From Phascolomyces articulosus (Eukaryota > Mucoromycota > Mucoromycetes > Mucorales > Lichtheimiaceae): 64,000 nt of DNA. Under the pieces are notes generated by a model that was not told the DNA's origin, ran no database searches, and saw only the letters and a program-made list of their open reading frames with translations. Position numbers and translations under genes: made by a program. The stretch covers positions 248,001 to 312,000 of the forward strand of contig JAIXMP010000030.1 of assembly GCA_025677815.1 (NCBI GenBank), given 5' to 3'. Positions 6,300 to 9,976 of this stretch are shown here, one piece after another (positions within the stretch are counted from its first letter, which is position 1; each line of letters starts with the position of its first letter).

Positions 6300-8037
6300 T
6301 TAGTGAACCTACTCTGTTACCTTTCTTTTATCTACATATTTGTGATTGGCTTACCCTTTCGCCACAATGTCGAACCTTGAACAGCAGAAGAAAGAAATCC
6401 AAACATCAAGCACAGTTGGTCTGTTTCCATCATTGTACCAATACCAAATGAGCCAGTTTTCAAAAACAATCGGGCGATCTAAGCCAGATCCAAACAAAAT
6501 GCCTATATCTAAATAGAGAAATAACAGCGATATGAGTAAGTCAGTAAACGATTATAAAGTAATCACAATGACACCCCTCTTTGATTCTATTCTCAATAAA
6601 TTATCAAATATATAATAACTTACCATATAAGCAGATTGTAAGGTCCTAACCAGAAGAAATATCTTGACATGTAAAAAAAAATGTGATTTCGTATTAATAT
6701 TGCTGTTTGATAATTGATGTATAAAATTATATGTTATATCAACAAAGATTTAATGCTTACCACGTAAGTATTGAGGATGCTTCTTTCCGATGGCCACCCC
6801 CATAATTAATCATACTTGTACTGAGCAACTACAAGGTTTTTTTTACAGAAAACCTTGCAGGAACTCCAAGCGAATGGCCGTTGATAAAAAGAAAAAGAAG
6901 AGGAAAAAAGGAACCCAGGGTATCCAGAAGAATGTTGTCGATGATGACAATACTATAAAAATAAAGGAACAGTTAGCCATAACATATTAAATATATATAT
7001 ATTGAAGTTTAACATTACATTCCAACGCTACGCACAAAAGAGAAATAGTAGTAATTACGTTTCATATGTGTGTGTGTGTGTGTATGTGCTTGTGTGTGAA
7101 AGATTTGATGGAGAGAAAAAAAAAAGAAAAAGAAAAAATATTCACTCCTTTATAGTTTTTTTTTTTTGGACCCAATCTTATTGCTGGCTCTTTGTTGCCT
7201 ATAAACATAATATCAATTCTTTCTGTAAATGAATTCTTTTTATTTTTTCCAATAAAAGCTTTCTCAAAACAAGAAATGGCTCTTTGGTTTCCTGTATTAA
7301 ATTTAATTTTAGCATAAGAAATAATAAACCCGAATAGTTTGGTGAAATACCTGAAGAAAAAAAAATGCAAATCATCAGGAATGACTTCATTTTAACGGAG
7401 TACTTTATGCTATTTACAAACCATTGTGCGTATATATATGAACAATGGCATTGATATGATACCTACGTACTATTTTTATTATATATTACTATGTTAATGG
7501 AATAATATGGTGATCTTTTTTTTTCTACCTTTCATATACAAATACAAGAAAGGAAAAAAAGTAGTAAAAGTTGCATGAAAAATATACTTCAGCTTCTTAA
7601 AAAGGTATAAAAAAAGTATTTTATTTAACAATAACAAGAGAAAACCATGATCTAGGTATATCATGGTTTATTTTACCAAAAAAACATGATTTTAACCAAT
7701 GTCAGGCTTTTTTCTTTCATCAAAAAGTATAATATTCCTAAAATTACCTGTCTCTATTATCCCAAATTTCAGGTTTTTAACAGACACTTCATTTTTTGTG
7801 ATTTAATTCTGGAGACGATTAATCGAGTTCAAGTCCATAATGATATGTAGTTTAGATTCTCAATGCATACACAAATTCTTCAGTGGAGGTTCATGTCAAT
7901 GTCTTTATTATGTACTATAATGATACTATAAGTTTTTTTTTTATTATATTGAGAATTGTGTCAAATGATTTGAATGTACCCTATTCTATATCATTGCAAG
8001 ACTAATCTAATACGCGTGAACTAATAGGATTGGCCTA
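6300..8037. other. AT-rich spacer with low-complexity sequence
   Basis: Beyond the possible 5' exons of the minus-strand repeat-family gene (to about 6640), no gene is supported. A Lys-rich frame at 6871-6990 (KKKKKRKKGTQ) is probably chance. The stretch carries a TG microsatellite and several A and T homopolymers. Confidence 0.35.
7066..7099. repeat. TG microsatellite, imperfect
   Basis: An imperfect run of TG dinucleotides interrupted by TATG and CT, followed by an A-rich tract of about 35 bases. No gene depends on it. Confidence 0.8.
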
Positions 8038-8612
8038 ACAGGAATGGATTATAATACGTTTCTGAAAGGAACACCACGAAGAGGAGGCAAACGGTTCTGA
8101 AAAGCGCACCACACATCGACGGCAGTTGTATTGCAAAATGAGCATATGTCAAGTCAAATCTGTGTTTTTTGTTTCCAGCCATTGAGTCACCTACCAGGGA
8201 TAGTCATTAAAGATGGAATAAAGGTTAAAAAATGCTCGCATGGTGCTCTTGTGTGCGACAATGTTAACTGTCCAGCTGTATTGGTTGGATATACCACTTT
8301 TAACAGAGATGCTGTAGGCGCTACCGGTATTTGGTTAGCAGCAATGACAACAATTTTTTCTGACGACAAGAAGCCATCCCTCCCTACAATCCATCAGCCT
8401 CGTTAACAACTACTACAACTACCACCAGTTATATCGAATTGGATCAAATTTATCGTTCTGTCTCACCATCATCAACTTTTTTGCATGGTACGTAAATTTG
8501 TTATACTTCTATATGATAAATTTTATAATTTAAAAACATCAAGTGACAAATACTTATTTATTTGTTTATAGGTGCAGGTCAAACATCCATGGACTTTTTC
8601 GTAGCGCTTTAA
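8038..8612 (+). pseudogene. TnpB/Fanzor-like zinc-ribbon/RuvC-III remnant
   Basis: The open frame at 8131-8406 contains CVFC, a basic linker (KDGIKVKKCSHGALVC), a second pair CDNVNC, then FNRDAVGATGI. The order CxxC...CxxxxC...NRDxxxA matches the C-terminal zinc ribbon plus RuvC-III aspartate of TnpB-type nucleases, including eukaryotic Fanzor proteins. Similar proteins are repeated in mucoralean genomes, from memory. Upstream, the same frame reads MDYNTFLKGTPRRGGKRF, then an in-frame TGA at 8098. Downstream, coding character moves to another frame after 8366 (EAIPPYNPSASL) and can splice through 8490/8572 to end at TAA 8612. The stop and frame change, with no RuvC-I or RuvC-II region upstream, indicate a decayed 3' fragment. 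Alternative: an unrelated zinc-finger transposon protein. Confidence 0.5.
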
Positions 8613-8924
8613 TATAGTCACTCTGCCTTCCCCTAGACATATTATGTGTACCGAAAAAACATAGTAAAAACGACTATATTCAACGCCATACCAACTATTT
8701 GTCATGGGAAATACCGTTGAATAAGGCAAATTGCCCTAATAGTAATAAATAATCCAAATTTGGTTTGGCTTCTTTATCGCTATGCATCACATAAATGACA
8801 CCCACCCACCCAACTTGAAACTTGCATTTTCTTTCTCACCTTCACAACTTTTTTTCTAGGCATACTCTTTTCCACCTTTTTTTTTCACTTTTCACCTTTT
8901 CTCCTATCTTTTTCCATTCCTATA
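8613..8924. other. Promoter region of the J-domain gene
   Basis: Strongly pyrimidine-rich from 8820 to 8920 (runs of T with CTTTC/CACC), typical of fungal promoters or 5' UTRs just upstream of a start codon. No coding sequence is seen. Confidence 0.5.
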
Positions 8925-9958
8925 ATGAGCAACCTTCCTGATTATTACAACATTCTCGAGATCCATCCAACTTCCACACAGTCCGAAATAAAAGATGGTA
9001 TTTAACATTACCCCTTTTTTATTATTATTTAGAATACTACTTTTTTTTTCATTAAATCTTTTTATAATGACACATACTTTTTTTTATATGAATTAGCATA
9101 TAAGAAGCAAGCTTTATTACATCATCCCGATCGACTTAAGGACAGTGTTAGCTCAGAAGAAAGAGCTGAAGCAACCAGAAAATTTCAGGTGATTGCCGAT
9201 GCTTATTATATCTTGGGTGATCCAGCTCGTCGTAAGACATATGATCAATCAAGAAAGCGACACACGCCTGCTATGGACGAGTCATCCCCACATGTAGATG
9301 CACAAGGTGTTTTTGGTGATGTTTTTGAAGAATTACTTAAGCCAGAAGGTAGAGTATTATTATTATTTTGGATGGATCAAAAACATGAAAATGAAGGAAA
9401 AAAGTGTAACTAAAAAGAGGCTATCTATATATTAAAATAGTGGAACGTCCAGGTCATTTGTGGCGAATTTTAGGAACAGGGGCTGGAGCAGTACTTGGTT
9501 TCATTATTGGAAATGTTGGTGGTGCTGCAGTGGTACGTTGTATACGAATGGGGTATGGTGACTAGATGGACAGATCAAGTCGCGACAATATATGTGCCAA
9601 GAATTTCTTAAAAAAAGGATGATGCTTAACTCTATTTTTTTATATATTGTTTTTTTTTAATGAATTAATTAAAGGGTGCTGTCGCCGGCCGAACACTTGG
9701 CAAGATCAGAGATAATAAAGGTAAGGAGAATAAAGAAGAATACACGTTTTATTGACACTTTATATGACGTAAAACTAAATATTCATGTGAAATTGTGTGT
9801 GTGTATGGTACGTATACATATATTTATTTATAAATACATACATAGGTGTCTCCGTATATACTGCATTCCAACGATTAGCCGCAAATGAACGACGAGATAT
9901 ATTGACAGCCTTATTAACGCGATTTGTAACCCAAGGAGCTGCTGGAATGATGAAATAA
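8925..9958 (+). CDS. J-domain protein with glycine-zipper segment
   Basis: Spliced as join(8925..8997, 9097..9348, 9441..9532, 9675..9720, 9846..9958), 191 residues, all GT-AG and in frame. Residues 5-75 form a DnaJ domain (DYYNILEIHPTST; HPD triad at 34-36; DAYYILGDPARRKTYD), so it should stimulate an Hsp70 ATPase. After an acidic linker comes a glycine-zipper segment (GTGAGAVLGFIIGNVGGAAV, continuing GAVAGRTLGK), suggesting membrane insertion or oligomerisation, then a helical C-terminal tail. Small fungal J-proteins with this layout are known but poorly characterised; the organelle cannot be told, as there is no clear signal peptide. It converges tightly on cytidine deaminase (18 bp between stop codons). 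The start is supported by a pyrimidine-rich leader and the immediate J-domain. Confidence 0.9.
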
Positions 9959-9976
9959 AAAAGGGCAACACCTTTT

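Follow-up and report, generated by a model that had tools for sequence, protein, structure and literature searches.

A 5'-truncated mobile-element fossil in Phascolomyces articulosus and its probable origin in a family of large Fanzor-related nucleases

The window, a 64,000-nucleotide stretch of DNA from the fungus Phascolomyces articulosus (Mucorales), carries a 742-bp remnant of a 5.8-kb mobile element, 5'-truncated and broken in frame (Table 1). An earlier note made from this DNA had read it as a Fanzor/TnpB-like remnant and confined it to 8038..8612, which proved too small: the sole match between the element L025 and the window is 7918-8659. The frame 8101-8406 translates as KAHHTSTAVVLQNEHMSSQICVFCFQPLSHLPG...CDNVNCPAVLVGYTTFNRDAVGATG, and CVFC, CDNVNC and NRDAVGA follow one another as the note had described, all in one frame. 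The in-frame TGA (8098-8100) and the tail in another frame (8364-8495) that it reported are both present, and as the tail frame leads on into the conserved last intron and 3' end, it is more than noise. The note's statement that RuvC-I and RuvC-II are absent upstream holds for RuvC-I, which truncation removed, and fails for RuvC-II, whose equivalent, IGLTGMDYNTFLKGTPRRGGKRF, is present at 8029-8097. A pattern of the form E-x6-CxxC-x(20-35)-C-x(2-4)-C-x(4-14)-D, composed post hoc with the sequence already in view, has a single stop-free occurrence when the whole window is translated in six frames, at 8140, and none in 20,000 shuffled versions of the window-frame protein. The right flank of this copy has no left partner because the 5' end is gone. 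Lacking RuvC-I and carrying two breaks, the window copy could not make such an enzyme, and by itself it is a fossil, ordinary debris.

Table 1. Features of the remnant, in positions of the window.
Feature	Position	Strand	Evidence
5'-truncated 3'-end remnant of the 5.8-kb element, including 7 bp of A-rich right flank	7918..8659	+	blastn, ~80% to long copies
Intron preceding the last large exon; donor AT here, GT in relatives	7928..8027	+	alignment with L022-L029 copies
RuvC-II-equivalent segment IGLTGMDYNTFLKGTPRRGGKRF	8029..8097	+	counterpart of the RuvC-II strand of relatives
TGA stop, in frame	8098..8100	+	translation
Codon for Glu where Fanzors have the alternative glutamate, six residues ahead of CVFC	8140..8142	+	rule from the accessible part of PMC10711439
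Zinc ribbon (TNB) and RuvC-III aspartate: E-x6-CxxC ... C-x4-C ... NRD	8140..8310	+	pattern and profile searches
Frame break, followed by reading in frame 8364-8495	8370..8380	+	translation and copy alignment
Last intron (identity with the L022 copy 92%, against 77% for the RuvC-II-to-NRD exon)	8488..8571	+	alignment
3'-terminal hairpin: element UUUUUCG pairs with C plus flank GAAAAA; candidate guide-RNA scaffold end	8591..8659	+	folding, z -3.13 (69-nt piece)
Right-end flank GAAAAAA, at the position of the target duplication in longer copies	8653..8659	+	sequence

Two annotated or apparent genes lie over or near the remnant. The 103-aa protein P0002 (BDA99DRAFT_563704; window 8146-8612) appears to be a gene model drawn over the remnant and spliced round the frame break; it matches 60% of the window frame at 98% identity and is unlikely to be functional as a gene. 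Some 270 bases further downstream, at 8925-9960, lies a multi-exon gene whose first exon, MSNLPDYYNILEIHPTSTQSEIKDG, presumably belongs to a DnaJ J-domain protein, which it resembles.

At least 21 matches to the window frame are found in the P. articulosus genome, and the longer relatives that the earlier note had predicted are among them. In a DNA comparison of ten loci, five long copies (L022, L023, L024, L025 and L027) have ~5.8 kb in common at 94-97% pairwise identity, and the window copy shares only its 742 bp with the long copies, at ~80%. L026 and L028 are 5'-truncated, L029 and L030 carry internal deletions, and an additional left end lies at C23:2078791. A 764-base probe from the right end matched 12 times. 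Identity was 96-100% in six cases, 80% for the window and 78%, 76% and 73% for three more; the remaining two matches were short, at 87% across 149 and 89% across 53 bases of the query. The long copies contain a multi-exon gene, whose exons we predicted by hand. In the C22 copy (L022) every predicted exon is open, giving a 1,319-aa model, and each of the other four has at least one exon break; with one long copy open in this way, the active relatives that the note had suggested are possible as judged from the sequence. Over model residues 800-1319 the independently annotated P0010 of Circinella minor (1,280 aa) is 52% identical, and therefore supports the exon structure. When 7,992 candidates were scored in a profile search, 28 proteins fell at E<=0.01, all from Phascolomyces, Circinella, or metagenome or environmental sources; the most divergent are P0018 and P0029, at 36%. 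No precomputed Pfam domain is recorded for any of the 28.

To look at selection we compared the exon running from RuvC-II to RuvC-III. Between the window and L022 (112 codons) this gave dN = 0.12 and dS = 1.11, which indicates that the window frame was under purifying selection before it decayed. The other pairs are weaker: dN/dS is 0.14/0.32 for window-L029, 0.13/0.89 for L022-L029, 0.21/0.36 for window-L028 and 0.24/0.79 for L022-L028. Across most of the element the five long copies show little codon-position bias, which points to largely neutral change after their spread.

The ends of the element bear on how it moved. The left ends of L022, L024, L025, L027 and L029 are preceded by an A-rich string, found again at the right end, and in four of these five copies the string shared by a copy's own flanks (8, 9, 10 and 9 bases) is longer than that shared with the flank of any other copy (at most 7); L025 fails this comparison, at 6 versus 7. 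Judged from their sequence, these are target duplications of 8-10 bases in A-rich sites in four of the five copies. At the 5'-truncated L026 the A-rich duplication was not seen, and by eye an 8-base string is common to both edges; also by eye, the two element ends have a degenerate inverted-repeat likeness. The first 70-86 bases of the element recur at 14 further places, family copies excluded. Three of these, L055-L057, were read: they have the same left boundary and 92-97% identity over the left 67-84 bases, after which their sequence differs from that of the nuclease element. L058 extends L057 into an ORF of another kind; it has a Cys-rich ORF and an ORF with weak OTU/C33-like Pfam matches, below cut-off. 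From these alignments, the nuclease elements appear to have their left end in common with other elements, as would fit mobilisation by a transposase acting in trans. Fanzor1 has reportedly been associated with many DNA transposon families by Bao and Jurka. A MULE-type transposase in L058, suspected from motifs, had no Pfam match for the joined exons. Non-LTR (LINE-like) movement, prompted by the 5'-truncated copies and by right ends that run into A-runs, was dropped because introns are kept, because L055-L057 carry the left end with an identical boundary, and because duplications of 8-10 bases occur in four of five copies. Introns are retained in the aligned copies, the last intron of L029 with a deletion.

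The 3' end of the element is better conserved than the exon, as the earlier note had foreseen for non-coding sequence in the relatives. Between the window and L022, 68 of 291 sites differ in the RuvC-II-to-NRD exon and 20 of 108 in the upstream intron, compared with 10 of 166 in the last intron, tail and 3' end. Each of the six copy pairs tested shows the lower divergence at the 3' end (Fisher p between 4.8e-7 and 0.043, the copies not being independent). Fanzors are eukaryotic RNA-guided DNA-cutting enzymes, and a guide-RNA scaffold would be expected to leave non-coding conservation of this kind beside the right end, to which sites for a transposase, or gene conversion, may add. When folded, the terminal ~69 bases form a hairpin, at the base of which the element's UUUUUCG pairs with C plus the flanking GAAAAA. 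This fold or a near version of it is found in eight of ten copies, L028 and L029 folding otherwise. Shuffling gave z-scores of -2.54, -4.19, -2.17, -2.35 (L028, with another fold), +0.16 (L029) and -3.13 (window) in six of the ten copies. Longer single 3' stretches gave -1.77 for the window (matched or bettered by 9 of 200 shuffles) and -2.30 for L025 (6 of 200). With Alifold on a seven-copy alignment and column shuffles, three stretches at the 3' end had z-scores of -2.65, -2.14 and -0.56, and one stretch of exon had -1.22. Support from RNA structure is therefore mixed.

Could the 3' conservation come from transposase-binding ends or gene conversion only, with no guide RNA? This is compatible with a nuclease and is a serious contender, though we put it below an even chance. 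The left 73 bp are well conserved too (91.8%, L024 versus L029), the hairpin at the 3' end might act as an end signal in the DNA, and the dS between the window and L022 far exceeds the divergence of both introns, as conversion could produce. Against this, the conserved 3' stretch is longer (~170 bp) and includes the last intron in six of six copy pairs, and the target duplication is part of the predicted terminal stem, which agrees with published Fanzor1 reRNAs, where the duplication forms part of the terminal stem or scaffold.

We then turned to the catalytic residues of the protein. RuvC-I reads GATDYGHVV in P0010 and the long copies, GTDYG in P0018, and GTTDYG in P0019, P0023 and P0025. The large-nuclease family thus has TDYG and no DPG at this place; DPG is present in the in-genome relatives L032, L033, L034, L036 and L042 and, in the portion of PMC10711439 available, is near exclusive in Fanzors. 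The RuvC-II-equivalent strand is IGLAGMGFNTFLKG in the family and IGLTGMDYNTFLKG in the window. The Glu within NEHMSSQICVFC lies six residues ahead of the first Cys, and a rearranged alternative Glu at just this distance before CxxC is given as a Fanzor hallmark in the same portion of PMC10711439. The ribbon is CxxC / C-x4-C and RuvC-III is NRD. In alignment A5, whose 17 rows we chose ourselves, the alternative Glu is found in all 14 rows with a letter there, the RuvC-III Asp in 15 of 15 and the RuvC-I Asp in 4 of 4; P0004, a Circinella fragment outside A5, has Lys at the Glu position. The earlier note had pointed to the acidic residues of longer relatives as decisive for its reading, and in these the RuvC-I Asp, the Fanzor-type alternative Glu and the RuvC-III Asp are all kept. 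In P0010 the RuvC-I Asp and this Glu are 313 residues apart, in the C22 model 302 and in P0018 195; the published Fanzor pattern, in the accessible text of PMC10711439, reads as 120-160, so that RuvC has an insertion here. The spacing of ribbon and RuvC-III also departs from the regular expression given there, and a string search for TDG, a motif of the Fanzor WED domain, found none in P0010 or the C22 model.

These departures would suit a protein descended from Fanzor/TnpB that has lost the RNA-guided nuclease function and acts for the element or the host as a DNA- or RNA-binding factor: its very long N-terminal part has no significant Pfam domain, DYG replaces DPG, and TDG is absent. We consider this unlikely, since none of the three acidic positions is lost in any A5 row that covers it and the RuvC-II to RuvC-III exon bears the signature of constraint described above for window versus L022.

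Homology to Fanzor was assessed by searching profiles against the PDB. The A3 profile (10 members: the large-nuclease family with P0018 and P0029) has SpuFz1, the Fanzor1 of Spizellomyces punctatus, as its sole match up to E=10, at E=0.05. A2, which takes in the in-genome L033 and L019 relatives, reaches SpuFz1 at E=4.7e-5 over chain residues 794-1010, the next match being at 0.37, and A5 does so at E=2.8e-7, followed by two Cas12f chains at 0.3. The stronger E-values of A2 and A5 hinge on the included relatives, which were themselves found at E 8e-8 to 1.1e-4. In the A3-SpuFz1 alignment the family Glu and Asp stand opposite chain residues 935 and 1000, 65 apart by hand count, and in the accessible part of PMC10432273 the SpuFz1 metal ligands include E541 and D606, with the same spacing of 65; in this sequence alignment the published catalytic Glu and Asp of SpuFz1 superpose on the family residues. 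Single-sequence searches of the PDB found no Fanzor, and NCBIfam gave no relevant match. Against Pfam TNB (Cas12f1-like_TNB, PF07282; cut-off 26.3) the window frame scored 14.9 bits and P0018 15.7. The profile check that the note had proposed thus came out in its favour for the PDB searches and fell below cut-off for Pfam TNB. AlphaFold on P0018 was no help (pLDDT 43.1 with 10 rows, 51.1 with 17). A compact bridge within the genome is L042 (C33:524465), an open 323-codon frame with GIDPG, NEFRSSKTC and NRD that scored 25.2 bits against PF07282, just under cut-off, and matched P0018 at E=2e-11 in a two-sequence comparison (30% over 165 columns); in its motifs it is intermediate between the DYG family and the DPG Fanzors. 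Other TnpB/Fanzor-type copies above the Pfam TNB cut-off occur in the same genome: L040 (C45:1634757), L041 (C27:718569) and L039 (C23:1327991), the last an open 376-codon frame with GGDPG and NRDVNAARN.

An unrelated transposon zinc-ribbon protein that resembles TnpB by chance, disfavoured and very improbable, could point to zf-like (PF04071) weakly matching 4 of 10 single A3 members (best E 0.015) and TNB only 2 of 10 (best E 0.017), all below cut-off, and to the window frame scoring 12 bits for zf-like beside its TNB score, also below cut-off, but it must contend with Fanzor being far ahead in the profile searches over ~220 residues, including the region before the ribbon, and with the superposed catalytic residues. 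The Fanzor/TnpB-like identity first proposed is supported, SpuFz1 being the best PDB match of the family profiles.

Altogether, we think it very probable that the remnant in the window is a dead copy, truncated at its 5' end, of a mobile element encoding a large Fanzor-related nuclease of the TnpB/Fanzor/Cas12 superfamily with a SpuFz1-like ribbon, together with a putative 3' guide-RNA scaffold and a transposase presumably supplied in trans. The grounds are homology to SpuFz1 in the RuvC-II to RuvC-III part, D-E-D in the relatives, target duplications, the shared left end and 3' conservation. As DPG and TDG were looked for and not found, we would class the family as a divergent lineage of very large proteins related to Fanzor1 and not as textbook Fanzor1; its RNA-guided activity is what these features would predict. 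In such a system the 3' end (last intron, tail and A-rich duplication) would be transcribed as the guide-RNA scaffold, and the protein would use this RNA to cut DNA, with flanking sequence as guide. Cutting sites left empty, or sites like them, may let the element persist or spread, and a transposase provided in trans would move it. A more specific proposal, which we regard as speculative and somewhat doubtful, is that a separate giant Fanzor-like lineage (~1,300 aa, DYG) exists in Lichtheimiaceae and allied Mucorales, inserts at GAAAAA-type sites because the duplicated target pairs with the element's UUUUUC and so completes the guide-RNA scaffold, and takes its transposase from elements with the same left end. 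The family behind the window copy is of moderate interest: an oversized lineage with an altered RuvC-I motif, with open candidate genes in two fungi beside dead copies, would illustrate the extent of divergence open to Fanzors, and it offers a testable rule tying target site to guide scaffold. Literature searches pairing Fanzor with Mucorales or zygomycete transposable elements gave no description of the family among the matches listed, supplementary sequence tables aside, and those pairing Fanzor with Mucoromycota, or Phascolomyces with transposable elements, found nothing.

How does the family compare with known systems? Textbook Fanzors are ~800 aa, against 1,280-1,320 here, and differ from the present family in its lack of DPG and TDG and in its C-x4-C ribbon. 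PpFz1, the Fanzor1 of Parasitella parasitica, also has a Mucorales host, and its RuvC insertion, the FRI domain in the available part of PMC11423790, recalls the RuvC insertion here; no chain so named is among the E<=10 matches of the A3, A2 and A5 profiles. The canonical Fanzor1-type copies L041 and L039 of the same genome share the order D, alternative E, D and the ribbon, and differ in having DPG, CxxC in the second half of the ribbon, RDRNAARN or NRDVNAARN, and Pfam TNB scores above cut-off. The predicted hairpin at the 3' end would pair with the A-rich flank, as is reported of Fanzor1 guide-RNA scaffolds. SpuFz1 (PDB 8gkh) is about half the size, to judge from the ~2.1-kb single-ORF locus given in the accessible part of PMC10432273, and the present family differs from it in DYG at RuvC-I, a multi-exon gene and a 5.8-kb element; the two are alike in the alternative Glu six residues before the first CxxC, in the C-x4-C second half of the ribbon (CTNPNC in SpuFz1) and in the NRD of RuvC-III.
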